Assembly: GCA_020439745.1 (NCBI GenBank)
Contig: JAGQSC010000009.1
Span: 186,001-250,000 of the forward strand
Reading direction: 5' to 3'
Origin: Acidobacteriota bacterium
GTDB taxonomy: Bacteria; Acidobacteriota; Holophagae; Acanthopleuribacterales; Acanthopleuribacteraceae
Length of the DNA stretch: 64,000 nucleotides
The notes below the pieces were generated by a model, which was given only the letters and a program-made list of their open reading frames with translations, was not told the origin of the DNA and did not search any database. Positions 18,725 to 61,681 of the stretch are shown here, piece after piece (position 1 is the first letter of the stretch; every line of letters starts with the position of its first letter). The position numbers were made by a program, and so were the translations under genes.

Positions 18725-18730
18725 TATAAT
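18725..18730 (+). promoter_or_regulatory. -10 element of the cytochrome-CRTAC1 operon
   Basis: A perfect TATAAT at 18725-18730. The nearest -35-like TTGACC (18691-18696) is 28 nt away, too far for a normal spacer, so an activator may be needed. The transcript would start near 18737. AGGAG lies 6-7 nt before the ATG at 18760. The rest of 18494-18724 contains nothing I can name. Confidence 0.4.
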
Positions 18731-18759: not shown

Positions 18760-21564
18760 ATGTCCGTTCCAGAGAAAGGTCAGCCCAAGAAAAAATACGT
18801 GCCCGCTGTAGGTCCGCGACTCAAGAAACTTCTCGCGGTCGTCTTCGGCCTATTCGCACTTCTGGTTGTTAACTCGGTATACCTGAGCTCCATTACCATC
18901 GCCGGCACGCAATACCAAAACTGGTTTTATTTATTGAATTTTGCCCTGCATTTGGCGTTGGGATTGTTGATTGTCGTTCCTGTGATTGTTTTTGGCCTGG
19001 TCCACATACGCAACACCTATTATCGAAAGAATAGGCGCGCCATTCGTGCGGGTTACGCATTGTTCACGTTTGCAATCATTCTTCTGATCTCAGGTATTGT
19101 GCTTACTAGGCTGGATCTGTTTGGGTTCCGCTTTGAAGTGAACGATGCCACCACACGCAGTGTCGCCTATTGGGCCCACGTCATTTCACCTCTTCTGGCC
19201 ATCTGGCTGTTCGTATTGCACCGTTTGGCCGGGAAAAAGATCAAGTGGCGGGTGGGTCTCAGTTGGGCCATCGTAGCAGCTCTTTTTGCGAGCGGCATGC
19301 TCTATCTGCAAACACAAGACCCCCGCTCGTGGAATGTGAAAGGACCCGCATCCGGCGAACAGTATTTTTTTCCGTCCTTGGCGCGTACATCGACCGGAAA
19401 TTTCATCCCGCAACGCGTGTTGAAGAACGACCAGTACTGTCAGGAATGTCATACGGACGTCCACAAGACCTGGACCCAGAGCGTTCATAAATTCAGCTCG
19501 TTCAACAATCCACCCTATGAGTTCAGCGTCAAGGGCACCCGACGGGCTATGATGGAACGCGACGGCCATGTGCGCGGCTCACGATTCTGTGCCGGCTGCC
19601 ATGACCCTGTCCCCTTCTTTAGCGGTGCGTTCGACGACCCTAAATTCGATGATCCCAATTACGATCTCTCCAGTGACCCTACGGCACAAGCCGGCATCAC
19701 CTGCACCGTCTGCCATTCTATTTCCCATATCAATAGTCCTCGTGGCAATTCGGATTACACCATCACCGAACCCGTCCACTACCCTTTTGCGTTTTCAAAC
19801 AATGGGTTCTTGAAGTGGGTCAATCGGCAATTGGTGAAAGCCAAACCTGAGTTTCACAAGGCGACCTTTCTCAAGCCGCTCCATAAGACACCAGAGTTTT
19901 GCGGTACCTGCCACAAAGTCCACTTGCCGCCGGAACTCAATGCCTACAAATGGCTCCGAGGCCAGAACCACTACGATTCCTACTACTTAAGTGGGGTGTC
20001 TGGTCACACGCCTGCTAGCTTCTATTACCCACCCAAAGCACAAGAGAACTGTAATGGCTGCCACATGCCCTTAATCGAAGTGTCCAGCGAACCTAATTTT
20101 GCCGCCCAGGTGCGAGATGATACGGGATTAGTCAAAACGTTTGATCACATGTTCCCCACAGCCAACACGGCGATCCCTGTGCTGGTCAAAGACAAAATGC
20201 CGGACTTCGAATCAGTGATCCAAAAGCACATGAAATTTAATGAGGGTGTGGTTCGCGTCGATATTTTTGGCATTAAGGAAGAAGGACGCATTGACGGTGC
20301 GCTAATCGCCCCCATTCGCCCACAGGTACCGGCACTCCAGCCCGGAAAGACTTATTTGATCGAAGCGGTGATTCGTACCGTGAAGATGGGACATCACCTC
20401 ACTCAAGGTACGGTGGACTCCAATGAACTTTGGATGGACGTGGCGGCACGTATGGGTGATCAGACTATTGGACGAAGTGGGGCGCGCAGCGAAATCGATG
20501 GTTCCGTAGATCCATGGTCACACTTTGTCAATGTGTTTGTGTTAGATCGCGAAGGAAACCGCATCAATCGACGTAATGCCGAAGACATTTTCGTGCCTCT
20601 TTACAACAATCAGATTCCACCCGGCGGCGCCGACGTGGTCCACTATCGCCTGCAAGTCCCAGCCGATGCAGTGGGTGAACTGTCGTTCGAAGTTGCCCTG
20701 CGTTATCGGAAGTTCGACACGGAATACATGCGTTTTGTTACGGGCAACGCAGATTACGTCAACGAATTGCCCATCATGACCATGGCCACTGACTCGGTAA
20801 CCTTCCCAATCGCACCGGCCAAATCGGTTACGGCAGACGATTCACCGATCCCACTATGGCAACGTTGGAACGATTACGGGATTGGACTATTACTCAAAGG
20901 TAAGGGCGCAGAACGGCGACAGGCTCTTGCAGCCTTTGAGGAGGTGGAGAGATTGGGACGTCCCGAGGGTCCCGTGAATCAGGCACGAGTTTATTTGAAT
21001 GAAGGCTTGATTCAGACCGATGCGCCTGAGGCACTGGCACGAGCCCGTGAGTTGGGTGCGCATACTTGGTGGCTCCTATGGTTTGGCGGATTGGTAGCCG
21101 AGAAGAACGGTGACTACGAATTGGCCATCACTCAGTACCGCGATTTGGTCCGGGGTGGGTTCGAAGAGGCCGTTGGCAGAGGGTTCAACTTCGGAAATCA
21201 CACTGTGGTGCGTAACACCTTGGCCAATGCTTTGATGCAATACGCGTTGGCCAAGTCTGGTGAGACACAGGCAGCGCTATTTGACGAAGCCAAGTCCAAT
21301 TACGAAAAGTCACTCGCTATTGACCCTGAGAATCTGGCCGCCCATTGGGGACTGAAACAGCTCTACGGATTAATGGGTAACGAGGCTGAATCGGCCAAAC
21401 ACGGGGCACTGCACGCCAAATACAAGCCGGACGATAATGCCCGTGATCGTGCCGTGGCTGCCGCACGTCGCAAGTACCCGGCCGCCAATCATGCGGCCGA
21501 AGACGTGGTGATTTACGATCTCACGCCTAAGTCGGACCAGGCGTCTTTGGGAGGCATGAAATGA
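18760..21564 (+). CDS. Membrane cytochrome b-like/pentahaem c-type cytochrome with TPR tail
   Basis: A 934-residue multidomain protein. Five TM helices (about 24-44, 55-80, 96-117, 134-153, 165-182) contain His64, His140 and His154, which could bind b haem. A periplasmic part carries five CxxCH c-haem sites at 227, 277, 315, 381 and 431 (CQECH, CAGCH, CTVCH, CGTCH, CNGCH), arranged as in cytochrome c554-like proteins, with extra histidines as sixth ligands. A beta-rich domain follows (about 480-690), then a TPR-type helical region (about 710-900). It would pass electrons from the quinone pool outwards. The stop overlaps the start of the CRTAC1 gene (ATGA). The electron acceptor is unknown. 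Confidence 0.75.
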   Translation: MSVPEKGQPKKKYVPAVGPRLKKLLAVVFGLFALLVVNSVYLSSITIAGTQYQNWFYLLNFALHLALGLLIVVPVIVFGLVHIRNTYYRKNRRAIRAGYALFTFAIILLISGIVLTRLDLFGFRFEVNDATTRSVAYWAHVISPLLAIWLFVLHRLAGKKIKWRVGLSWAIVAALFASGMLYLQTQDPRSWNVKGPASGEQYFFPSLARTSTGNFIPQRVLKNDQYCQECHTDVHKTWTQSVHKFSSFNNPPYEFSVKGTRRAMMERDGHVRGSRFCAGCHDPVPFFSGAFDDPKFDDPNYDLSSDPTAQAGITCTVCHSISHINSPRGNSDYTITEPVHYPFAFSNNGFLKWVNRQLVKAKPEFHKATFLKPLHKTPEFCGTCHKVHLPPELNAYKWLRGQNHYDSYYLSGVSGHTPASFYYPPKAQENCNGCHMPLIEVSSEPNFAAQVRDDTGLVKTFDHMFPTANTAIPVLVKDKMPDFESVIQKHMKFNEGVVRVDIFGIKEEGRIDGALIAPIRPQVPALQPGKTYLIEAVIRTVKMGHHLTQGTVDSNELWMDVAARMGDQTIGRSGARSEIDGSVDPWSHFVNVFVLDREGNRINRRNAEDIFVPLYNNQIPPGGADVVHYRLQVPADAVGELSFEVALRYRKFDTEYMRFVTGNADYVNELPIMTMATDSVTFPIAPAKSVTADDSPIPLWQRWNDYGIGLLLKGKGAERRQALAAFEEVERLGRPEGPVNQARVYLNEGLIQTDAPEALARARELGAHTWWLLWFGGLVAEKNGDYELAITQYRDLVRGGFEEAVGRGFNFGNHTVVRNTLANALMQYALAKSGETQAALFDEAKSNYEKSLAIDPENLAAHWGLKQLYGLMGNEAESAKHGALHAKYKPDDNARDRAVAAARRKYPAANHAAEDVVIYDLTPKSDQASLGGMK

Positions 21565-23411
21565 CCGGACACCCACGGGACCACGAGGTGGATGAACTCG
21601 AAGCCGAGGAGCGGGACGATACAGTCATAGGCGTTGTCTTCTGGCGATCGCTTATGGTCATGATCGTAGTGGCCGTGGCGGTTGGAAGCTGGATATACCT
21701 CCAACGCAAGGAGAAGACTGAAGCAGAAGTGGTGGAACGAGGTGAAACGCCACTGCCAGCAAAACTGGAACAGGGCGAACCTCCGCCCCATTTACGCTTC
21801 ACTGATGTCACCGATACCTCAGGCATTGATTTTGTTCATGTCAACGGGGCCAATGGTGAGAAGCTCTTGCCGGAAACCATGGGAAGCGGACTGGCCTGTT
21901 TTGACTACGATGGCGATGGAGATCAAGATCTGTACTTCGCCAACGCCACACACTGGCCATGGTCCCCTGATCGCAATACCACTAAGGGTGCACTATACGT
22001 CAATCGAGGCGATGGGACTTTTGAAAACGCCACTGAGCGGGCGGGCTTGATTCATAGTGGATACGAAACCGGTGTCGCGGTTGGCGACATCGACCAGGAC
22101 GGCGACATCGATCTATTCATTGCGTCACTAGGATCGAATAAACTTTTTCGTAACGACAACGGCCGGTTCGTAGATGTCACCAAGCCAGCAGGCGTGGCCG
22201 GAGAAAGCGATCGATGGAGTACCAGTGCGGGTTTTGCAGATCTGGATAACGATGGTGATCTCGATTTGTTTGTGTGTAACTACGTGGCATGGACCAAGGA
22301 AATTGATCTGGACTTAAACTTCAGCATCAATGGCACCGATCGCGCATATGGTCCACCCACCAATTACCGAGGCACCTTCTCCTATCTCTACGAAAATCTG
22401 GGCAACGGCACGTTTCGCGACGTCTCCCAGACCTGGGGCGTGCAAGTGACGAACCCGGCAACAGGCGAACCGTTAGGCAAGGCATTGGCAGTGGCATTTG
22501 CCGATGCCGACCGAGATGGGCGCATGGATATCTTCGTAGCCAACGATACGGTCCAAAATTTTGCATTTCGAAATATGGGCGGACGATTCGAGGAAGTTGG
22601 GAGTCAGTCTGGATTAGCATTTGATCAAATGGGTAGTTCAACCGGCGCTATGGGCATGGATATCGGCGATTTCCGCAATCGCGGTGATTTGGCCGTCAGC
22701 GTCGCCAATTTCGCCAATGAGAGCACGTCTTTCTATGTCCAGCAAAGCACTAATCCCTGGCTCTTTAATGACATCTCAAATGCCACCGGTATCGGTTCTC
22801 CCAGTCGCTTGAAACTGAGCTTTGGACTGTTTTTCTTTGATGTCGATTTGGATGGTCGCCTCGACCTGTTTCAGTCAAACGGTCATTTGGAAACCGAGAT
22901 CAACGAAATTCAACCCAGCCAACACTATCGCCAACCCGCACAACTGTTTTGGAACCGGCTCTTTGACGGACAAACCGAGTTTGTGGAAATCGCTTCTGAG
23001 GCTTTGGGGGATTTGTCAAAACCCATAGTGGGACGTGGATCAGCATATGCTGATTTCGACGGCGATGGTGATTTGGATGTGGTAATGACACAGTCCGGAG
23101 GCCCACCACTATTCCTGCGCAATGACCTGGATAACGGTCACCACTGGTTGCGGGTCAAGTTAAAAGGCACCACCGACAATCGGTTTGGAATCGGAGCCTG
23201 GATTGAGTTGAAGGCGGGCGAAGAAACCCAACGACGTCAAGTGATGCCAACACGCAGCTATTTGTCACAAGTGGAGCTTCCGGTAACTTTCGGCCTTGGC
23301 AGCACTGGCACCGTCGATTCCTTAGTCGTTCAATGGCCCAACGGCACGCGTCAGGAAGTCGCCGTGGATGGCGTGGACACCACGATCGAGGTCACACAAG
23401 AATCTCGCTGA
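21561..23411 (+). CDS. Membrane-anchored CRTAC1-family FG-GAP/VCBS protein with ASPIC/UnbV domain
   Basis: A 616-residue protein anchored by one TM helix (about 28-46) and otherwise periplasmic. It has repeated Ca-binding blades with the D-x-D-x-D-G pattern (e.g. DYDGDGDQDLYFAN, DIDQDGDIDLFIA, DLDNDGDLDLFV, DADRDGRMDIFVA, DVDLDGRLDLFQ, DFDGDGDLDVVM), indicating a beta-propeller. The C-terminus (GIGAWIELKAG ... LVVQWPNGTRQEV) is the ASPIC/UnbV module. Its biochemical role is unknown; it may serve as a binding partner or enzyme. Four-nt overlap with the pentahaem cytochrome gene implies a stoichiometric complex (inference). Confidence 0.8.
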   Translation: MTGHPRDHEVDELEAEERDDTVIGVVFWRSLMVMIVVAVAVGSWIYLQRKEKTEAEVVERGETPLPAKLEQGEPPPHLRFTDVTDTSGIDFVHVNGANGEKLLPETMGSGLACFDYDGDGDQDLYFANATHWPWSPDRNTTKGALYVNRGDGTFENATERAGLIHSGYETGVAVGDIDQDGDIDLFIASLGSNKLFRNDNGRFVDVTKPAGVAGESDRWSTSAGFADLDNDGDLDLFVCNYVAWTKEIDLDLNFSINGTDRAYGPPTNYRGTFSYLYENLGNGTFRDVSQTWGVQVTNPATGEPLGKALAVAFADADRDGRMDIFVANDTVQNFAFRNMGGRFEEVGSQSGLAFDQMGSSTGAMGMDIGDFRNRGDLAVSVANFANESTSFYVQQSTNPWLFNDISNATGIGSPSRLKLSFGLFFFDVDLDGRLDLFQSNGHLETEINEIQPSQHYRQPAQLFWNRLFDGQTEFVEIASEALGDLSKPIVGRGSAYADFDGDGDLDVVMTQSGGPPLFLRNDLDNGHHWLRVKLKGTTDNRFGIGAWIELKAGEETQRRQVMPTRSYLSQVELPVTFGLGSTGTVDSLVVQWPNGTRQEVAVDGVDTTIEVTQESR

Positions 23412-28736: not shown

Positions 28737-28794
28737 TCATACCTCAATGCGTGGACGGTTTGGACGCAGCCATTTGTGGATTATACGAAGGAAC

Positions 28795-51757: not shown

Positions 51758-51894
51758 GGTTCCTCCTCGGCTGCTCGATCACATCCGTCACAGTGCTTGA
51801 TGCAGCCACAATGTTCGGTTGGGTTCTTCAATTGCAAGAATCCCCAAAGCGCGACGATCAGGCAGACAAAGCCCAAAGCCAAAATGGTTTTCAC
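51754..51894 (-). CDS. 46-aa membrane-anchored cysteine-rich protein between rnfA and the ferritin gene
   Basis: I found this small gene by reading the minus strand between rnfA and the ferritin-like gene. It starts with GTG at 51894, overlapping the rnfA stop as GTGA. It ends with TGA at 51756-51754, overlapping the next start as ATGA. The product has one TM helix (about 3-22, ILALGFVCLIVALWGFLQL) and a soluble tail HCGCIKHCDGCDRAAEEEP with four cysteines in C-x-C-x3-C-x2-C spacing plus two histidines. That could bind a metal or small Fe-S cluster. Coupling on both sides within the rnf operon argues that it is real and works with the Rnf complex. I know no named family. Confidence 0.7.
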   Translation of the reverse strand: MKTILALGFVCLIVALWGFLQLKNPTEHCGCIKHCDGCDRAAEEEP

Positions 51895-52472
51895 GATCCA
51901 CCTCCCATACCGGCAAAACCCATAAACGCCGTCGACAGAATGCCGGCCACCACAAGCGCCAAAACCGTCCCTTTAACCGATTTCGGCGTATCTGAAAGGT
52001 CCAAGTGTTGACGCATGCTCGCCATTAACACCAATACAAGGAAAAAGCCCACACCTGCACCCAATGCATAGGTGACACATTGCAGGAAGCGGTATTCCCG
52101 CGCGGTCTGAAAAAGCGCCACAGCCAAAATGGCACAGTTGGTGGTGATCAAAGGTAAGAAAATACCCAGGCTGCGGAACAAGGCGGGGCTCAATTTCTTG
52201 ATGGCCATTTCCACCAATTGAACGGTTGACGCGATCACCACAATGAACGAAATCAGACGCAAAAACTCCACCCCTAATCCTGTTAACAGTGCATTTACAC
52301 CAAAGGCGCAAACTGAGCTGACCAGCATGACAAATATGACCGCTCCACCCATGCGGGCGCTGGTGTTCACCTCGCGCGTCACACCAAGGAACGGACAGAT
52401 TCCCAGGAAATACGCAAGGATAAAGTTATTGATCAGACATGCGTCTAGAAAAAGTGGGAACAACTGGCTCAT
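51891..52472 (-). CDS. rnfA: Rnf complex subunit RnfA
   Basis: A 193-residue, six-TM inner-membrane subunit of the ion-translocating ferredoxin:NAD+ oxidoreductase. Motifs: INNFILAYFLGICPFLGVT (with the conserved Cys binding the intramembrane iron centre together with RnfE), LRLISFIVVIASTVQLVEM and PLITTNCAILAVAL. Length is standard. It overlaps rnfE (52469-52472) and the 46-aa gene (GTGA). Confidence 0.93.
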   Translation of the reverse strand: MSQLFPLFLDACLINNFILAYFLGICPFLGVTREVNTSARMGGAVIFVMLVSSVCAFGVNALLTGLGVEFLRLISFIVVIASTVQLVEMAIKKLSPALFRSLGIFLPLITTNCAILAVALFQTAREYRFLQCVTYALGAGVGFFLVLVLMASMRQHLDLSDTPKSVKGTVLALVVAGILSTAFMGFAGMGGGS

Positions 52473-53059
52473 GTCGCCCTCCCTTTTCTCAACTCAATCA
52501 ACCACAACCAGCCGGCCAACGTGAAGAACCCTCCGGGGGGCAATACCATCAAAACCCACGGCTCAAAATGCGGGCCTAAAACGTGCCACCCGAACAAACT
52601 TCCTGAGCCAAACAGTTCGCGGACCCCACCCAGGCACAACAACCCAAAGGTAAATCCAAGACCCATACCCAAAGCGTCTTTCATGGCATCGAGCACTCCG
52701 TTCTTTGAGGCGAAGGCTTCCGCCCGACCAAGAATGATGCAATTGACCACGATCAACGAAATAAATGCGCCCAGAGCCTTATGCAATTCCACGCTAATAG
52801 CCTGTATCACATAATCCACGGCAGTCACAAACGTCGCAATAATCAGAATGAAACTGGCGATGCGCACCTGTTTGGGGATCAAGTGCCGCAGCAGCGACAC
52901 CAAGGTTGATGACATCACAAGCACGAATAGCGTGGCCAGACCCATCGCCATACTGTTGATCGCTGTGTTGGTGACCGCAAGCACAGGGCACATACCCAAA
53001 ACTTGCACAAACACCGGATTCTCACGCCAAAGTCCCTTTGAAAAGGTGTCAGCTGTCAC
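52469..53059 (-). CDS. rnfE: Rnf complex subunit RnfE
   Basis: A 196-residue, six-TM subunit pairing with RnfA. Motifs: NPVFVQVLGMCPVLAVTNTAINSMAMGLATLFV with the iron-centre Cys, and LIVVNCIILGRAEAFASKNGV. I set the start at GTG 53059. It overlaps the rnfG stop as GTGA and has an AAGGAGG Shine-Dalgarno 5 nt upstream; the in-frame ATG at 53092 lies inside rnfG and would overlap it by 37 nt. Length then matches the family. Confidence 0.92.
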   Translation of the reverse strand: MTADTFSKGLWRENPVFVQVLGMCPVLAVTNTAINSMAMGLATLFVLVMSSTLVSLLRHLIPKQVRIASFILIIATFVTAVDYVIQAISVELHKALGAFISLIVVNCIILGRAEAFASKNGVLDAMKDALGMGLGFTFGLLCLGGVRELFGSGSLFGWHVLGPHFEPWVLMVLPPGGFFTLAGWLWLIELRKGRAT

Positions 53060-53643
53060 GGCGACCTCCTTTTCTTGAGTTGAGGTACCCAAAGGGCCGT
53101 GCTATCTGACAATCCCTTCACCACAGCTCGGGAGCTAATGGTTGCCCCGGAAATGGCATCCACTTGCCATTCATGAAGACGTTGGCCCGGCTTTACGAAC
53201 TCGACCTGATGGACCAGCGCATCGTTTTCAACCGGAACGGCGATGTTGGAAACGTGTTCGAGAAAGATTGCGTCTTTCTCGATCTTGTCGCCCAGGCCCG
53301 GGGTCTCTCGACTGGACAAGACTTTCATTCCTGTGACCGATTCACGGTTTGGATCGTAACCGTATATGAACGCGATCACATCTTGGAAACCTCGGGTTTC
53401 ACAAACCACCGCATACCCCTGCAGCTCGTTACCGGCATTGCGTACCTCAAAAGCTTGAACGCCCTCCCATTCCAGCGGTTCTTGGGTCACCCCGCCAGGC
53501 ACCACTTGCAACACGGCTTTCTGCAGATAGGCGGCATGGTTAGCGGCAATACGAGGCGCCGTTGTCTGAGCGACCAACGTCAGTATCAAAGCACAGGCCA
53601 CGCCAAGCCCTGTAAGCACACCTACCAACCGCAATGACGTCAT
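53056..53643 (-). CDS. rnfG: Rnf complex subunit RnfG (FMN-binding)
   Basis: A 195-residue periplasmic flavoprotein with one N-terminal TM helix (about 4-26). The FMN attachment motif is DAISGATISSRAVVKGL near residues 165-182, with Thr of SGAT as the site modified by ApbE. The ETPGLGDKIEKD box is also typical of RnfG/NqrC. It takes part in the electron path from ferredoxin to NAD+. It overlaps rnfD (53640-53643) and rnfE by 4 nt. Confidence 0.93.
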   Translation of the reverse strand: MTSLRLVGVLTGLGVACALILTLVAQTTAPRIAANHAAYLQKAVLQVVPGGVTQEPLEWEGVQAFEVRNAGNELQGYAVVCETRGFQDVIAFIYGYDPNRESVTGMKVLSSRETPGLGDKIEKDAIFLEHVSNIAVPVENDALVHQVEFVKPGQRLHEWQVDAISGATISSRAVVKGLSDSTALWVPQLKKRRSP

Positions 53644-54635
53644 GGTTGGCCCCCAAATGCCTTTGGTTGCGTGAACCGTTCCAGTAAGGGCACGGTGGCG
53701 TTGGCGATCAAGATGGCGTACATCACGCCCTCAGGTAATCCGCCCCAAAACCGAATGGCACAGATCAGAAAGCCTATGAGCACCCCAAACAGCCATATAG
53801 CACCGGTCGTAACGGGCGACGTCACCATATCGGTGGCCATGAACCAAGCGCCCACCATCAAACCGCCAGATCCCAGCATGAACAGACCGTCTGGATAGTT
53901 TGCATTCAATTGGTTCGCCACGCCCGAAATCACGAATACACTCCCCATTACGGCAATTGGAATACGCCAATCCAACATGCGACGCAGGGCCAAATACGCA
54001 CCACCGGTCAGTACAAGCACCGATGCCGTTTCTCCAATACAGCCCGCAGTCTGGCCCAGGAAGAGGTCACTAATATGGCTAGACATGTGATCAAATTTCA
54101 AAAGTCCTAGAGGCGTGGCGCCTGATATGGCGTCTAGCTGGGGACGAGCAAAGGGAATCGTCCAGGACCCAGCCAGAAACGACTGAAACCGGTCACTGAG
54201 AAACGGTGGCGTCCAGCGCGTCATCGCCGCGGGAAAGGCGGCTTGAAGGAACGCTCGGCCTACAAGGGCCGGGTTGAACAGATTTTGTCCCAGCCCGCCA
54301 AAAGCATGCTTGCCCAATCCAATCGCAACCAACGAACCCAACGCGGCCATCCATAATGGGACCGACGGCGGTAAGGTCATGCCCAGCAACAATCCGGTAA
54401 TCACCGCAGACCCGTCACTGAGAGAGCCTAGGCGATGGAATCGGGATGTGAACCCGAAATCAGCCAAACAGGCTGCACCCACACACACCACCAATACGCT
54501 CAACGCAGATAGACCAAAGCTCCAAATGCCCCACAGGGCAGCCGGCAATAGCGCCCAGCACACATGCCACATGATGTAGGCTGTGGTTCGCTCGGAATTC
54601 AGGTGCGGTGCGCCCTTTAATAACAAGGCCTTCAT
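53640..54635 (-). CDS. rnfD: Rnf complex subunit RnfD (FMN-binding)
   Basis: A 331-residue, multi-TM subunit. Motifs: GLGQNLFNPALVGRAFLQAAFP, the flavinylation site LDAISGATPLGLL (Thr carries FMN), MVGAWFMATDMVTSPVT and GGLPEGVMYAILIANATVPL. The start is ATG 54635, overlapping the rnfC stop as ATGA; the in-frame ATG at 54731 lies inside rnfC. Order and lengths agree with rnfCDGEA operons. Confidence 0.94.
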   Translation of the reverse strand: MKALLLKGAPHLNSERTTAYIMWHVCWALLPAALWGIWSFGLSALSVLVVCVGAACLADFGFTSRFHRLGSLSDGSAVITGLLLGMTLPPSVPLWMAALGSLVAIGLGKHAFGGLGQNLFNPALVGRAFLQAAFPAAMTRWTPPFLSDRFQSFLAGSWTIPFARPQLDAISGATPLGLLKFDHMSSHISDLFLGQTAGCIGETASVLVLTGGAYLALRRMLDWRIPIAVMGSVFVISGVANQLNANYPDGLFMLGSGGLMVGAWFMATDMVTSPVTTGAIWLFGVLIGFLICAIRFWGGLPEGVMYAILIANATVPLLERFTQPKAFGGQP

Positions 54636-55930
54636 ACAGCCACCGGTTGCTTGCGCAAATCTAATTTTGCCTGCCTGAAGTACTGCACCAGAGGTATTTT
54701 CGAGGGACACACAAACGCACAGCTGCCGCATTCAAAGCAGTCGCGCAGACGATATTGCACGCAGCCGTCCAAATCACCACCTCGGGCGCTACGCATGATG
54801 GCGGCAGGGTTCAACGACATAGGACAGGCCTGGACGCAATAACCGCATCGAATGCAGGGACCTGACTCATGGTCTTGAGCGGTCTTGAACGCCAACACGC
54901 CGCTGGTCCCCTTCGTGATGGGTAGCTGCAGGTCGGCCACAGAAACGCCCATCATGGGTCCACCTAAAATGACTCGTTGACAGTCAGGCACCACGCCAGC
55001 AGATTGCAATAGAAACCCAACGGGTGTGCCAATTGGAACCAGGTAGTTGCCCGGTTTTTCCACGGCATCTCCCGCCACGGTGACGATCCGTTCAACCAGT
55101 CCCAAGCCTTTGGGGACCAATCGGGCAATCATCGCGGCAGTCTGAACGTTAGCAACCACCACGCCCACGTCCATAGGTAAGCCACCGGCGGGCACCTCCC
55201 GTCTTAACAAGGCGCGAATGAGCATTTTCTCTGCGCCTTGAGGGTACTTCACTTGAACCACGCGAATATCCACACAATTATTGCTGGCCCGTTCCAATGC
55301 CTTGACCGCATCCATTTTGTTGGCTTCCACCCCAATCACAACCCGCTCTGCCCCAAGCACCTTTTTCATCAACAGGGAACCCGAAACGATGTCATCAGGC
55401 CATTCCAGCATGGCGCGATGGTCAGCTGTCAGATAGGGTTCGCATTCGGCACCGTTAATCATCACGGTGTCCACATTGCGACCATCAGGGACCTTGAGCT
55501 TGACGTGGGTCGGAAAAGCCGCACCCCCTAAGCCTACAAGGCCACTTCTTGCTACGGCATCCACCCACTGTCCGGGATCGTTCAGGTCGGGCGGTGCTCG
55601 AAAGGGAACATGTTCCTGTCCTGCACCCGGCTCTGAAGCCAACACGATTCCCTGAATCCGTTGCCCTTGAGGGGTCGCCAACCAGCCAATCTTTCGAACC
55701 GTACCCGTCACTGGCGCATGGATCGATGCCGAAACGAATGATCGACCCTCCGCGATCAGGCTTCCCCGCTCCAATCGCTGACCTACCTTCACCACACATT
55801 GAGCTGGCGCCCCAATGTGTTGACCAAGCGGGATATGCAATTCCGGGGCAAATCCCAGTCGTCTCACAGGCATCTCGGCCGTGGTCTTGAGTTGTGGCGG
55901 GTGTACACCCCGTGCGAAGGTCGGGAACAA
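54632..55930 (-). CDS. rnfC: Rnf complex subunit RnfC (NADH-interacting)
   Basis: A 432-residue soluble subunit. N-terminal RnfC barrel (PVRRLGFAPELHIPLGQHIGAPAQCVVKVG), a Rossmann-like NAD/FMN region (GLVGLGGAAFPTHVKLKVP, NGAECEPYLTADHRAML), an SLBB-like part, and two C-terminal [4Fe-4S] motifs: CIRCGYCVQACP and CFECGSCAFVCP. It exchanges electrons with NAD(H). The PFOR gene ends 7 nt upstream, so electrons from pyruvate and Rnf are tied in one transcript. Confidence 0.94.
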   Translation of the reverse strand: MFPTFARGVHPPQLKTTAEMPVRRLGFAPELHIPLGQHIGAPAQCVVKVGQRLERGSLIAEGRSFVSASIHAPVTGTVRKIGWLATPQGQRIQGIVLASEPGAGQEHVPFRAPPDLNDPGQWVDAVARSGLVGLGGAAFPTHVKLKVPDGRNVDTVMINGAECEPYLTADHRAMLEWPDDIVSGSLLMKKVLGAERVVIGVEANKMDAVKALERASNNCVDIRVVQVKYPQGAEKMLIRALLRREVPAGGLPMDVGVVVANVQTAAMIARLVPKGLGLVERIVTVAGDAVEKPGNYLVPIGTPVGFLLQSAGVVPDCQRVILGGPMMGVSVADLQLPITKGTSGVLAFKTAQDHESGPCIRCGYCVQACPMSLNPAAIMRSARGGDLDGCVQYRLRDCFECGSCAFVCPSKIPLVQYFRQAKLDLRKQPVAV

Positions 55931-55937
55931 AGTATCC

Positions 55938-58900
55938 TCAGTTGTACTTACTGGCTCGCTTGATGAGGCTTTCCAGATCTGACTCCTGTGGATCTGTGGG
56001 CAGGCCAGGATGGATCACCTGGGCTGTACACTTTTCGGCAGCCTTTACCAAGTCGCGATAGGGCCCGCCTTTGGCATTTTGCACAAATGCTTTGCCCCCT
56101 TCGTTGTAGGCGAAAATTGTGGGGTTGATCTTGATGCATTCGTCACATGAGGTACAGGATTCTGTCTCGATCCAGGCGGCCATATCGCCATAATCGTTGC
56201 TGGCTTCGACTGCGCTTGCGGGTTCGCCGCCAACTTGGGGTTGAGCGGCGTCATCACCCAACATGCGCCACAGGCCCGCCGTAAGTTTTTGAAACGTCTC
56301 CTCGCGTACACGCCTTTCGACATCCGCCATTTGAACTGGTTTTTCATCGCGTCGCGCCACCGCTCGCAACATGGTCCAGAACCCCTTGCGTTCCTCACAC
56401 GATCGCACCATCACCTCGGAGACCATAACGCGTTGCAGGTTACCTTGCGGGTCCGTAGCCCATATGTAGGGGTACTTTCCGGAGCGATCATCGCATTCGA
56501 TGAACTCGTGAAGTGGGACCATCGCATCACTCCATGCATCGCGAGGCGCATAGCGGAAGTGCTTGCGAAAACGTCCTTCGGTGACGGCAAAGTCGGCGAA
56601 TGTCATGACAATCTCCATTGTCTTTTCGCGACCGTGCTCCATGTATTTCAGTGGGTAGGTAGGCCAATCGCTATCGATATTGGGATTACCATCCAAGTCG
56701 AAACAGGCATGGGCTGTGTCACCCTTGTCAGGGTCGTAACTGAATATGGGGTAGGCCCGGGAATGTACCGCCAATCTGGCCTGCCTCGTACCCAAATCGT
56801 CACCGATCCCATGTTCCGGCTGACAGGATGTGTAGATGTTGAACAATGCGGGACGATGACTATTCAGGCCCTTGATGAACCCTTCGATCATATGGTTGGC
56901 ATTGGATATGGTGCTCTGGAGAACGAAAGCCGTTCGGTGCGCCATGGCGATCAGACCAATCTCCTTACGGACCTCTTGTTTGCCCTGAATGGCCTTGCCG
57001 TATTGGGCCATGTCAGATACCTGGCCCATAAATCCAGAGGTGCATGCCTGTCCTCCGGTATTGGAGTACACCTGCGTGTCGAGAACGATCACCTTGATCG
57101 GTTTACCGGACATCAAGGCACGGCTCAGGTTCTGGAAGCCGATGTCGTACATGGCACCATCGCCGCCCACCACGCAGACGGGCGGACACATTTGCCACTC
57201 CTCTTGAGTGAAATGCTGCCAGTTAAACGTCGTAAATTCAGCATCGTGTTGATGAGGATGGTAGCCGCCATTGAGTTCCAGCTTGGCTTTACGCACCCAA
57301 GCAAAGCCTTCAGCCATCTTGGCCATGTGCCCTTCAAACACGCCCATAGCCATGGAAGGACTGTCTTGAAACAGATGGTTGGCCCACGGAAAAGGATAGG
57401 GATTGAAGGGGTACGTACTTCCCCAAACCGAACTGCAACCTGTTGCATTCAGGATACCCATCGAGCTTCGTCCTCTGCCCGTGGTGCCTTGCGTGTAGGC
57501 ATGCAGCATCTGCTTGAGTTGAGCAATCATCTGCGTGGTCCGTTTTAGCCATGCGGGGTCGACAGGTTTTGAACCCTTGGCTTGCTGGGTCTTCTCGGCG
57601 ATTTCCGCAAGGGTCAGATCGTGATCGGATGCACCATCCGCGATCTGACGCATCACGTCGCTGTCGGAAAGGTCCAGAGTTTTCGTGAGCTGCAGTTGAA
57701 CATGCTGTTCGAGCGACTGAATCAGGTCTCGCAGCTGTTGAACATAGGCCGCCACACGTGGTTGCATGAGGGCTTCTACCGTGCCGACAAACAAGTGGAT
57801 GGCCGTCTTTTCTGAACAGCCAAGACACGCACCATCACCGCTACTCAAAGCCAGGTAGTTTTGTTTATCCAGCAGGATCGTTTCCAGGGCCCCAATGCCT
57901 TGGTCCAGATCATCCACACGAATGTAGTCTTTAGGTGTCGTCGGCAAGTCTAGCCAGAACGACCAATCTCGTTGCAGCTTCGCGACGCTGGTTTCCGACT
58001 GAGAAACGGTGCGCAAAGCGTCGTCGTCACACACCTCCACACATTCCATACAGCCCTTACAGGTGTAGGGGTTTACGGTGATGCTCAGCAGACCGCCGGA
58101 CCCCTTCTGCCGTTTTTCGGGGATGGTGTAGTAGGGGCGCGTGAGGGCAAATTTGAAGCCGTCCAATTCACGATCGATAGCTGCGATGGCTTGTTCCGCA
58201 CCACCTTCTCGGCGTTCCTGGTTCATGGCTTCCTGGATCAAGCTGTGCACGTCACTCCCATTCTCTGATGTTTGAGCCAATGACTTTAGGCGACGTGCCA
58301 ACGACATCCCCGTTTTTTGCAGATCGGTTACATCGTCACTTTGTTTCTTGACCCGACCGACGGCCGTCTCGAACACAGCCCCAATCTCAGTCACGAGCCC
58401 AGGAATGGCGGTATCTGGACAGGCCGTATAGCATTTACCGCACGCTGTACAGTTCTCCGGGATCCACTCGGGATGCTGAAAACGAATCCCCGTCATATCG
58501 CGGAACACGCCCGTGGATGCGGGTATCAGGCTCATACTGACAAATGGATCGGCGAGGTTGTCGTTGCCTTTGCCAGACAGATAAAAGGCACCGGTTCGTT
58601 CCCAGAAACTGTGAATATCGGTACTGGGGTCTTTCCCTTCAGGTTGAATGCGGAGCATGACCGGGGCTTTGGCAATAGCCAAGGCAGTTTGACCTTGCTG
58701 TTGCGGCTTTTCAGTGATCTCGCGGATCTCATCGTAGCCGCGACGAACAACTCGCATGTTGTCTTCTACGACACGGGCTCCTTTGCTGCCAAATTTGTGC
58801 TGCAGCTGATCGCGAATGGATTCAAACAGCTGCGCCTCATCCAAACCCGCGCGTTCTTTTACATCTGAGACGGCAAAGAACGCACCTTGAAAAGCGTTGC

Positions 58901-60791
58901 CCTGCATACGCAACTGTAAATCTGAATCCGTGGCCTCCTCACGAGCAATCTTGAACGCGTCGATGGCATAAAGCTTGATCTCCAATTCGCGGATGAGGTC
59001 CTGATAGACCTTCGGAATCGAGGACCAAACAGCCTCAGGCGTATGCAGATCGCTCTGAATAATGAACACGCCGCCCCGTTTCAAACCAGCCAGCGCATTG
59101 GTGTGCTTGAAGACATTGGGATCCGGCGAAAGTACAGCATCCACAAAGAAATACTCGCAATTGATGCGGATAGGTTCCGGCGATGCAGACAGATAATAGG
59201 TGGTCGGTTGACCTTTTTTTTCAGACCCATACTTGGGATTCGCCTTGATGTGATAACCCAACATGTCAAACAGCGTCATGGCAAGATTCTTACCCGTCGT
59301 AATGGCGCCCCAGCCGCCCACCGAATGAATGCGGACCGTCAAGCTACCTTGGGGCATTAGGTTGGGGTTTTCGGACCCGTGAACAGCCAACTCAGCTACC
59401 CGCGGATACGCGTCACGAATGGCTTGCTGATGAATCTCCTGCTTAGGTGTAGCAGAATCCTCACGCAGGAAGTCGATCGACAAATAGAACATCTTCTTGC
59501 GTCCACCCTCTGGAAGCATGTTCTCAACAGCACCAATAATGCCTTCCGGTTGCAAATCGCGGCTCCCCATTCCAAAGGAACCGGAAAACAGTGGCGGCAT
59601 GTCTTTCAGAGACTTAAAAACGGGATACTCGGGGTAAGGCAGATTCTTTCCATCCAACCCGTTCTCCATGCATTTTCCCAGTGATCCGCGAATCTCGCGC
59701 ATTAGCGGCAAATCTGACGCTAGGGGTTGGTCTAACCGTTCAAGGACCGTCACACCCTTGCGACCTTGCAGGATTCGTCCCACCAAATCGCCGGGGAAGG
59801 GGCGGAACATGGTCATGTTCACGACGCCCACCTTAATTTTGCGGGTGGCACGAAGGTAGTCCACCACTTCCTCGGCGCTGGGAATCAAGCTACCCTGGCC
59901 CACAATCAAATAGTCGGCGTCCTCGCAACGGTAGGTGCTCACGCGTTCATAAGACCGACCGGTCAGCTCACCGAACTCGTGGAAACAGCGGTCCGTGATC
60001 TCGCGGATATGGTCAAAAAAGAAAGGCCTTTGCGCCGCAACACTTTGCATATAGGCGTCTTGGTTCTGAACCACGCCGGCCATTACTGGGTTGTCCACCG
60101 TCCAAAGCACGGGAATTCGTCGGCGTTTGGGTCCATAAATCAAGCGCTGGGCGGGCGTTGGGCAGTCGATCATGTCGTCAGGCCGACCCAAATACGCCTC
60201 AATCAGCTCACGCTCGGGCAGGAGCATAGATTCGATCAAGTGGGTTGTGAGAAACCCATCCTGAGCCACGATGCCTGGAGTCAATGCCAATTCCGCAATC
60301 TTGTGGGCGATGATGTTCAAATCACACGCCTGCTGCGCGTTCTTGGCGAACACCTGAAAGAAACCCGTATCGTCAACACAGTGATAATCATCGTGACCGG
60401 CATGCACGTTGAGCGTTGATTTGGTCATGGCGCGAGCACCTATGTTCAGCACATAGGTCAATCGTTTCCCCACCGCCGCATACAGCGATTCGTGCATGTA
60501 GGCAATGCCCTGGCCTGACGAAAAATTGGCTGCCCGAAGGCCCGTCATGGCTAGTCCGGCCGTGACCGCGGCAGCTGCGTGTTCACCTTCGGGTTCAATA
60601 AAGATCAGAGGACGATTAGATATGTTGATGTGCCCCTTGGCTGCTGCTTCGGCAAAATACTCTCCCATCTGAGTGGAAGGCGTGATGGGATATGCTCCAG
60701 CGGCATCGGTCGATTCCCGCTCGCACATGATGACAGCTGTATTACCGTCCATGGCGACACGTGTTCCTGGATATTTGGCTTGAGTTTTCAT
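55938..60791 (-). CDS. Giant pyruvate:ferredoxin oxidoreductase (PFOR-like), 1617 aa
   Basis: Converts pyruvate and CoA to acetyl-CoA and CO2, reducing ferredoxin, with TPP and Fe-S clusters. Domain order as in single-chain PFOR: alpha (1-430; YPITPSTQMGE, EPEGEHAAAA), gamma (about 485-700; GGWGAITTGKNLA), delta with Cys781/784/787/791 and Cys911/914/917/921, and beta with Cys989/992, Cys1119, GDGAMYDIGFQNLSRAL (TPP/Mg) and Cys1323. Three additions explain a length about 400 residues above usual: about 120 residues between the delta clusters; about 100 helical residues in the beta domain after Cys992; and a C-terminal ferredoxin-like domain (1540-1617) with Cys1546/1549/1552 and Cys1588. AAAGGAA Shine-Dalgarno; sits between rnfB and rnfC. 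The 2-oxoacid specificity is inferred. Confidence 0.88.
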   Translation of the reverse strand: MKTQAKYPGTRVAMDGNTAVIMCERESTDAAGAYPITPSTQMGEYFAEAAAKGHINISNRPLIFIEPEGEHAAAAVTAGLAMTGLRAANFSSGQGIAYMHESLYAAVGKRLTYVLNIGARAMTKSTLNVHAGHDDYHCVDDTGFFQVFAKNAQQACDLNIIAHKIAELALTPGIVAQDGFLTTHLIESMLLPERELIEAYLGRPDDMIDCPTPAQRLIYGPKRRRIPVLWTVDNPVMAGVVQNQDAYMQSVAAQRPFFFDHIREITDRCFHEFGELTGRSYERVSTYRCEDADYLIVGQGSLIPSAEEVVDYLRATRKIKVGVVNMTMFRPFPGDLVGRILQGRKGVTVLERLDQPLASDLPLMREIRGSLGKCMENGLDGKNLPYPEYPVFKSLKDMPPLFSGSFGMGSRDLQPEGIIGAVENMLPEGGRKKMFYLSIDFLREDSATPKQEIHQQAIRDAYPRVAELAVHGSENPNLMPQGSLTVRIHSVGGWGAITTGKNLAMTLFDMLGYHIKANPKYGSEKKGQPTTYYLSASPEPIRINCEYFFVDAVLSPDPNVFKHTNALAGLKRGGVFIIQSDLHTPEAVWSSIPKVYQDLIRELEIKLYAIDAFKIAREEATDSDLQLRMQGNAFQGAFFAVSDVKERAGLDEAQLFESIRDQLQHKFGSKGARVVEDNMRVVRRGYDEIREITEKPQQQGQTALAIAKAPVMLRIQPEGKDPSTDIHSFWERTGAFYLSGKGNDNLADPFVSMSLIPASTGVFRDMTGIRFQHPEWIPENCTACGKCYTACPDTAIPGLVTEIGAVFETAVGRVKKQSDDVTDLQKTGMSLARRLKSLAQTSENGSDVHSLIQEAMNQERREGGAEQAIAAIDRELDGFKFALTRPYYTIPEKRQKGSGGLLSITVNPYTCKGCMECVEVCDDDALRTVSQSETSVAKLQRDWSFWLDLPTTPKDYIRVDDLDQGIGALETILLDKQNYLALSSGDGACLGCSEKTAIHLFVGTVEALMQPRVAAYVQQLRDLIQSLEQHVQLQLTKTLDLSDSDVMRQIADGASDHDLTLAEIAEKTQQAKGSKPVDPAWLKRTTQMIAQLKQMLHAYTQGTTGRGRSSMGILNATGCSSVWGSTYPFNPYPFPWANHLFQDSPSMAMGVFEGHMAKMAEGFAWVRKAKLELNGGYHPHQHDAEFTTFNWQHFTQEEWQMCPPVCVVGGDGAMYDIGFQNLSRALMSGKPIKVIVLDTQVYSNTGGQACTSGFMGQVSDMAQYGKAIQGKQEVRKEIGLIAMAHRTAFVLQSTISNANHMIEGFIKGLNSHRPALFNIYTSCQPEHGIGDDLGTRQARLAVHSRAYPIFSYDPDKGDTAHACFDLDGNPNIDSDWPTYPLKYMEHGREKTMEIVMTFADFAVTEGRFRKHFRYAPRDAWSDAMVPLHEFIECDDRSGKYPYIWATDPQGNLQRVMVSEVMVRSCEERKGFWTMLRAVARRDEKPVQMADVERRVREETFQKLTAGLWRMLGDDAAQPQVGGEPASAVEASNDYGDMAAWIETESCTSCDECIKINPTIFAYNEGGKAFVQNAKGGPYRDLVKAAEKCTAQVIHPGLPTDPQESDLESLIKRASKYN

Positions 60792-60806
60792 GGAACATTC
60801 CTTTCG

Positions 60807-61670
60807 TTAGGCAGAGCGTGGGGGCAGTGCTTCTTTTCGTCGCAGTCGTGGTGCTTCAGCACCATATTCGGGACCATTTGTTCCCATCCACAACATGGCA
60901 CCCGTAGGGCAGCGTTCGGTGGCATTTTTATGGCTGTGCGGCAGCGTCATATCAATGACCGGTAAGGGTCCGTCCATATGGACCAGGTCGGGCGCATCCA
61001 TGGCACATTTTCCACAGGCGGTACACCCTACTTCGCAAACTTCAAGAACGCGGTCGCCCTCTTCTTGACTCTTACACGCCACCCACAGGCGGCGGGACTC
61101 AGTTTGCAGACTAAACAAGTCCTTTGGGCAAATATCCACACAATCACCACAGGCCGTACAACGAGCCTCATGGACAACCGGCAATCTAAAGGGCGACATA
61201 TGAATCGCATTGAAGTTACAAACCACCTGGCAATCACCCAACCCCAGGCAGCCCCAGCTGCAGGACTTACCAGCACCACCAACCATGGATGCCGCACGAC
61301 AGCTACTTAGACCTCGATAAAGGGCGTGTTGATAAGCTGCGTTTGTACCTCCCGCGCAGGCGAGTCTTGCCACTTTGCGATGGGCGGTCCCGGCAGCTAC
61401 TCCCAGATAGGAAGCGATGTTTTGGCGATCCAGATCCGAGGAAACGGTGCATTTGACCGGTTCACTTTTCTGGCTTACCAGTGCTTCGGCAAATGCCCGA
61501 CATCCCGGAAATCCACAAGCCCCGCAATTGGCTTGGGGCAGCATGCCATCGACCATATCGATACGAGGATCTTCATCCACATAAAACAGGCGTGCCGCGG
61601 CGGCTAGCACGGTTCCAAGTGCCAATGTGAGGCCGCCCAGAGCGGCGATGGAAGTAAGTACAGTATCCAT
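60807..61670 (-). CDS. rnfB: Rnf complex subunit RnfB
   Basis: A 287-residue ferredoxin-type subunit with an N-terminal TM helix (about 5-28). The Fe-S domain is NCGACGFPGCRAFAEALV ... C (Cys49, 52, 57, 74). It is followed by a cluster-like Cys137/141/147/151, then CTACGDCVDICP (171-181) and CTACGKC (216/219/222) with Cys254. It accepts electrons from reduced ferredoxin, supplied by the PFOR encoded 16 nt downstream. It is placed first in the operon instead of last as in many rnf operons. The ATG has no Shine-Dalgarno, and a TATAAT lies only 6 nt ahead. Confidence 0.9.
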   Translation of the reverse strand: MDTVLTSIAALGGLTLALGTVLAAAARLFYVDEDPRIDMVDGMLPQANCGACGFPGCRAFAEALVSQKSEPVKCTVSSDLDRQNIASYLGVAAGTAHRKVARLACAGGTNAAYQHALYRGLSSCRAASMVGGAGKSCSWGCLGLGDCQVVCNFNAIHMSPFRLPVVHEARCTACGDCVDICPKDLFSLQTESRRLWVACKSQEEGDRVLEVCEVGCTACGKCAMDAPDLVHMDGPLPVIDMTLPHSHKNATERCPTGAMLWMGTNGPEYGAEAPRLRRKEALPPRSA

Positions 61671-61675
61671 ATCCG

Positions 61676-61681
61676 ATTATA
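61676..61681 (-). promoter_or_regulatory. -10 element of the rnf-PFOR operon
   Basis: A perfect TATAAT on the minus strand, 6 nt before the rnfB ATG (61670). No good -35 box is seen at 16-18 nt. The predicted transcript start coincides with the start codon, suggesting a leaderless message or an unused motif. The region 61682-61881 holds no gene I can support. Confidence 0.35.

Follow-up and report, generated by a model that had tools for sequence, protein, structure and literature searches.

Judged by architecture, the nearest functional analogue of the cytochrome described here (P0001) is CbcL, whose haem number and domain order differ from those of P0001 and for which we know of no CRTAC1 partner. 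CbcL is an inner-membrane cytochrome of Geobacter in which a b-haem membrane part is joined to a multihaem c part and which is linked to quinone, as is predicted for P0001; it is a bc-type menaquinol-oxidising cytochrome (PMC12307469), and the two proteins are likened by their build. Another described protein, the low-potential pentahaem cytochrome c552 of T. tepidum (PDB 5ze8), shares with P0001 the pentahaem domain and the Ig-like fold; however, its structure comprises 385 residues, has no membrane or TPR part and is 17% identical to P0001. MccSep/ExtKL (PDB 9wt8, NF040886) is a distant relative of the haem region, and its Ig-like domain has a conserved GH loop as that of P0001 does, but MccSep carries Sec in this loop (GHxxxxGU), whereas P0001 has neither Sec nor Cys there. 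As for the partner protein (P0002), the same combination of a propeller and a UnbV/ASPIC domain is found in murine CRTAC1 (PDB 9etn), with the difference that P0002 has a membrane anchor and that its gene is coupled to one for a cytochrome. A precedent for a link between CRTAC1 and cytochromes exists in other bacteria, where genes for multihaem homologues of the hydrazine synthase subunits have CRTAC1 genes beside them (PMC12758564), even though the cytochrome families involved are different.

The window, i.e., the whole stretch of 64,000 nucleotides that was analysed, lies on contig C51 of a host assembly of 5.1 Mb. It harbors a pair of genes whose domain anatomy, as seen in the sequence and in the structural models, is the following.

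18725..18730, + strand: TATAAT, candidate -10 element about 30 nt before the P0001 ATG (sequence match)
18760..21564, + strand: cytochrome gene (P0001), 934 aa, with a predicted dihaem b membrane domain, a pentahaem c domain, an Ig-like beta domain and a TPR part
18814..19311, + strand: TM domain of P0001, residues 19-184, five TM helices, with invariant His64/His140 and His82/His154 as predicted b-haem ligands
19408..20169, + strand: pentahaem domain, residues 217-470, CxxCH at 19438, 19588, 19702, 19900 and 20050
20245..20811, + strand: Ig-like beta domain, residues 496-684, motif GHxxTxGTxDSNxxW including His545 (AF2 model, 5ze8 alignment)
20854..21495, + strand: TPR superhelix, residues 699-912 (AF2 model, structural matches)
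21561..23411, + strand: CRTAC1-family gene (P0002), 616 aa, its start overlapping the P0001 stop
21621..21704, + strand: N-terminal membrane anchor of P0002, residues 21-48, one TM helix
21783..23141, + strand: FG-GAP beta-propeller of P0002, residues 75-527 (Pfam, structural match)
23187..23366, + strand: ASPIC/UnbV domain of P0002, residues 543-602 (68.7 bits, cut-off 23.4)

The two genes overlap by 4 nt (ATGA), and both flanking genes are located on the opposite strand, so that the pair stands alone at this locus. The preliminary description of this DNA had recognized a five-TM/pentahaem/TPR cytochrome with a beta domain, the stop of which overlaps the start of a membrane-anchored FG-GAP/UnbV gene. 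Both parts of this description were confirmed: the ORF lies where it had been placed and has the five TM helices, the five CxxCH motifs, the beta domain and the TPR part, and the second gene shows the ATGA overlap, one TM helix and the Pfam domains. The pair is real and widespread and represents an apparently undescribed variant of the quinone-linked b/c cytochromes; a literature search that covered few of the subscription papers found no publication on it. Elsewhere in the window (51891-61670, minus strand) lie Rnf-type genes (an Rnf-Nqr membrane subunit, an RnfC-like and an Fe-S protein), together with a rubrerythrin gene and the gene for a pyruvate:ferredoxin oxidoreductase of 1617 aa, in the same genome that has four haem-copper oxidase matches.

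Five hydrophobic segments precede residue 185 of P0001 and correspond, in the AF2 model (pLDDT 89, pTM 0.84; the AF2 models are cofactor-free protein chains), to helices 19-48, 55-86, 92-115, 130-156 and 163-184. The only His among the first 200 residues are those at positions 64, 82, 140 and 154, which are invariant in the alignment of 66 homologues and form two pairs, 18 residues apart in helix 2 and 14 apart in helix 4; the cytochrome b-like nature that had been proposed for the membrane part is thus well supported. The domain is predicted from these residues to carry two b haems, with His64/His140 and His82/His154 as the respective ligands. In a wider alignment (A5), His64/His140 are always retained, while the His82/His154 pair is incomplete in all seven aligned members of subfamily C, which fits two separate b haems and also implies that transmembrane transfer would not be general in the family. 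For some of the TM domains in the family there are matches to DUF4405, Ni_hydr_CYTB or Cytochrom_B561 with values of about 1e-4; P0001 itself scores 15.1 bits against Ni_hydr_CYTB and stays below the Pfam cut-off (30.1). A profile search of the PDB with the TM domain of P0001 alone retrieved only weak, unrelated membrane proteins.

P0001 contains exactly ten Cys, all embedded in the five CxxCH motifs (residues 227, 277, 315, 381 and 431), and no CxxCK. Its residues 217-682 match the T. tepidum c552 structure (Z 15.3, 341 residues, rmsd 4.0; VIA-align), and a profile search agrees on 5ze8 (E 1.4e-10), followed by cytochrome c554 and MccSep; with Foldseek alone, the best rows for P0001 were only TPR matches. 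The cytochrome does not correspond to a known nitrite, hydroxylamine or tetrathionate enzyme, its best structural relative being c552. NrfA and the octahaem nitrite or tetrathionate reductases were ruled out on the basis of the absence of CxxCK and the confinement of all ten Cys to CxxCH; a hydroxylamine oxidoreductase-like octahaem protein was ruled out on the number of haem motifs, only five; and MccSep/ExtKL identity was ruled out by a score of 15.6 bits against the NF040886 cut-off of 250 and by the GHxxxxGU loop, in which P0001 has Thr551 at the position of Sec and thus neither Sec nor Cys. The bis-His ligation of all five c haems would need five distal ligands. The non-motif His 243, 366, 463 and 545 are invariant across the subfamilies, and a fifth, His375, is invariant (66/66) in subfamily A, to which the window's protein belongs, and only there; outside this subfamily, one c haem may be open or otherwise ligated.

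The partner P0002 contains six FG-GAP_3 stretches (130.1 bits against a Pfam cut-off of 26.9), and its AF2 model (pLDDT 90) matches murine CRTAC1 with Z 41.5 over 459 residues, the next best score being 31.2. The lower matches include the fungal aldos-2-ulose dehydratase (Z 27.9) as well as many non-enzymatic propellers (LGI1 with Z 31, others with 25-27). In the P0002 family, His442 and many acidic residues are invariant. The host genome contains 125 FG-GAP_3 matches. On another contig (L115:12257-19899, G000:C6), CRTAC1-like proteins alternate in tandem with proteins of about 640 aa free of haem motifs, and this run is an expansion of CRTAC1 in the host genome not tied to the cytochrome.

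A split version of the cytochrome was disclosed by a tblastn search of plasmids, which retrieved P0001 homologues in Shinella (pShin-02) and on a Nitratiruptor plasmid (the L167 and L168 operons). The order of the genes is imelysin, DUF4405 or a short membrane protein, pentahaem cytochrome and FTR1 permease. The split pentahaem protein aligns over its whole length with the P0001 family (hhalign, E 2.4e-46), and the split membrane proteins align with the P0001 TM domain (E 7e-8 and 4e-6), having His 84/102 + 163/177 and 40/58 + 118/132, i.e., the same 18/14 spacing that P0001 has in common with the DUF4405 neighbours. Since the pentahaem and DUF4405 parts are homologous, stand in the same order and keep the same His spacing, P0001 looks like the fusion, visible at the level of the alignments, of a two-gene b/c module to which a TPR tail was added. 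The difference is that in Shinella and Nitratiruptor there are two genes with FTR1 as a partner, whereas P0001 is one chain with a TPR tail and with CRTAC1 instead. No FTR1 gene adjoins the pair and none was matched in the host genome; membership in an FTR1/imelysin iron-uptake operon was therefore rejected, and the split operons suggest a way of working rather than membership. No orthologues of the Shinella cytochrome were retrieved from Acidobacteriota at E 1e-40, in a search run without a positive control. In the imelysin-DUF4405-pentahaem-FTR1 operon, the cytochrome is a possible haem-based electron partner of the FTR1 iron permease; a literature search that covered few of the subscription papers found no publication on a multihaem cytochrome in FTR1/imelysin operons.

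In order to assess the conservation of the pair, GTDB species genomes were scanned, yielding at least 554 confirmed relatives of the cytochrome. The best 80 of these, i.e., those closest to P0001, derive mostly from MAGs recorded under the names Planctomycetota, Acidobacteriota, Verrucomicrobiota, Latescibacterota and Pseudomonadota, and all 80 have five CxxCH. Among the 68 of them with at least 1.5 kb of downstream sequence, a CRTAC1 gene lies within 150 nt downstream in 60, and in 42 of these 60 it overlaps or touches the cytochrome gene. In a set of 40 divergent loci, CRTAC1 is directly downstream in 26 of the 32 membrane-type members, while in the soluble, TM-less members it is located upstream, downstream or is absent. 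The membrane-type members without an adjoining CRTAC1 include those at loci L080, L086, L089, L130, L131, L136, L144, L158 and L165. In the sampled Acidobacteriota, relatives of the cytochrome are present in 87 of 297 genomes (about 30%).

The analysis of the phylogenetic trees revealed a corresponding history of the two genes. In the CRTAC1 tree (n = 74), the sequences paired with cytochrome subfamilies A, C and E form clades (support 100/93, 100/97 and 99/94, respectively), and the other CRTAC1 sequences of the host genome fall outside them. The subfamilies branch alike in the cytochrome tree, as ((A,B),C) and a separate E, and this tree repeats many of the inner joins, as an example that of the window and OFTM365 near the planctomycete L026. 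The pairwise distances of cytochrome and CRTAC1 correlate with r 0.92 over 45 pairs (none of 2000 permutations was as high); within A, C and E the correlation is 0.60, 0.64 and 0.89, and shared vertical descent alone would also produce some correlation. The conservation across genomes that had been expected of the coupling was thus borne out by the survey, both in the close (60/68) and in the divergent membrane-type loci (26/32), and by the matching trees; the pairing goes far beyond what chance would give. In both trees, the window's pair is placed among planctomycete pairs, which suggests that the cytochrome/CRTAC1 pair was transferred as a unit. The search of viral contigs and phages retrieved no relatives, and a mobile-element reading was dropped for this reason.

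The same genus contains a second, shorter cytochrome/CRTAC1 pair (L120:3729-7552 on contig C51 of the host genome, G000, and L126:7003-10823 in G001), whose cytochrome has five TM helices and five haems, one motif being CX4CH, and no TPR; this type often co-occurs with the longer one in other Acidobacteriota genomes. Two further proteins recur near the pair: a TPR/FG-GAP/UnbV protein of 850-1300 aa (hereafter, the giant) and an amidase. One or the other is found in 21 of 120 loci, the commonest order being amidase-giant-cytochrome-CRTAC1. In the host genome, they occur together on another contig (C56:65.7-69.8 kb), where the giant (L114:13733-17822, G000:C56) adjoins an amidase of the nitrilase superfamily. 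The giant has a conserved C-terminal domain of about 430 aa with no Pfam match and the motifs SCPxxFxWNG and GWxKDxD. Counted without regard to kinship and with the membrane and soluble types assigned by hand from the best matches, a giant homologue is present in 61 of 64 Acidobacteriota genomes with a membrane-type cytochrome against 33 of 233 others; in the genomes with a soluble cytochrome there is no such tie (9/23). The amidase, counted in the same way among the 297 Acidobacteriota genomes, is present in 25, all of which have the giant. It is proposed that, in some lineages, giant and amidase belong to the same module as the pair.

As regards the promoter region, a perfect -10 without a -35 had been noted and taken as a sign of an activator. 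The first part stands: TATAAT is present at 18725-18730, and no sigma-70 -35 element was found 16-18 nt from it. The idea of an activator was rejected as unsupported, because the upstream region is unconserved in the two nearest relatives, L043 and L030, neither of which keeps the TATAAT; this is a consensus match only, and two other genes of the window share it upstream. The copies in the window are at 18725-18730 (+), 28780-28785 (-) and 61676-61681 (-). Since the motif is rarer than expected (3 observed against 11 by shuffles) and each copy is directly upstream of a same-strand ORF, the three may be real -10 elements.

On the whole, P0001 is rather probably a transmembrane electron-transfer protein made of a single chain, to which P0002 is dedicated as the partner in the periplasm. 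A b haem near the periplasmic side (His64/His140) and another near the cytoplasmic side (His82/His154) would conduct electrons between the quinone pool and the five c haems that the pentahaem/Ig-like domain would carry in the periplasm. A docking arm would be provided by the TPR tail, and the membrane-anchored CRTAC1 propeller, being co-translated, would either present a substrate or metal ion to the chain of haems or position the next redox protein there. What we infer in proposing this scheme is that haem is bound, which side of the membrane each part faces, that quinone is the redox partner and that P0001 and P0002 form a physical complex. The c-type cytochrome assembly genes and the four haem-copper oxidase matches of the host genome count in its favour; the incomplete second b-haem pair of subfamily C, the c haem without a conserved distal His beyond subfamily A, the membrane-type members without a CRTAC1 neighbour and the soluble relatives without a membrane part, which they have lost or never had, count against it.

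The direction of the flow might be either. Since the module also occurs in cultured planctomycetes of a kind usually grown as aerobic heterotrophs, and since its split homologues lie in iron-permease operons, we lean slightly towards the quinone pool receiving electrons from a reductant in the periplasm. The opposite, a quinol-oxidising outward branch as in CbcL, would lead from quinol through the b haems and the periplasmic c haems to an acceptor in the periplasm or at the surface, and the CRTAC1, TPR and giant proteins would form an envelope-spanning scaffold. Even though P0001 has in principle the same build as that menaquinol-oxidising bc-type cytochrome (PMC12307469), and its TPR and propeller parts suit docking, the surveyed neighbourhoods contain no recurring outer-membrane porin-cytochrome conduit. 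Moreover, the module is present in planctomycetes that are not known for metal respiration, Rhodopirellula and Gimesia among them, and outward flow appears rather unlikely.

Two other explanations would place a catalytic site within the pair. The pentahaem domain might itself be the enzyme, a haem without a conserved distal His reducing or oxidising a small molecule with CRTAC1 as an accessory subunit. Such a catalytic, non-bis-His haem is suggested by the four invariant non-motif His available for five haems beyond subfamily A, by the Sec of the related MccSep in its Ig-like domain and by the CRTAC1 genes beside hydrazine-synthase-like multihaem genes; however, His375 would allow five bis-His haems in subfamily A, there is no CxxCK, and the Sec position is a Thr, which leaves this reading fairly improbable. 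Alternatively, CRTAC1 might be the enzyme, with a metal site in the propeller that converts a substrate such as a sugar, and the cytochrome only collecting the electrons. The matches of P0002 to metal-dependent aldos-2-ulose dehydratase propellers, the invariant His442 with its many invariant acidic companions and a soluble-type homologue in Granulicella, accompanied by CRTAC1 genes beside glycoside hydrolase genes, argue for this, but many non-enzymatic propellers, LGI1 among them, score nearly equally, there is no recognisable redox cofactor site, and we know of no established enzyme activity for CRTAC1; this explanation is unlikely.

Acidobacteriota and Planctomycetota are rich in CRTAC1/UnbV propellers, to which, to our knowledge, no role has been assigned in bacteria. 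With one CRTAC1 firmly coupled to one membrane cytochrome, the function of CRTAC1 becomes testable via a redox partner or substrate. It is conceivable, even if we would not count on it, that the pair forms the centre of a widespread periplasmic redox complex not yet described, together with the giant and, in some of the lineages, with the amidase, and that the CRTAC1 propellers are working subunits of a redox enzyme in it; if true, bacterial CRTAC1 proteins would thereby be given their first function. The pair would represent a quinone-linked electron route, with relatives in nearly a third of the sampled Acidobacteriota, that is now annotated merely as "multiheme cytochrome" or "TPR protein".
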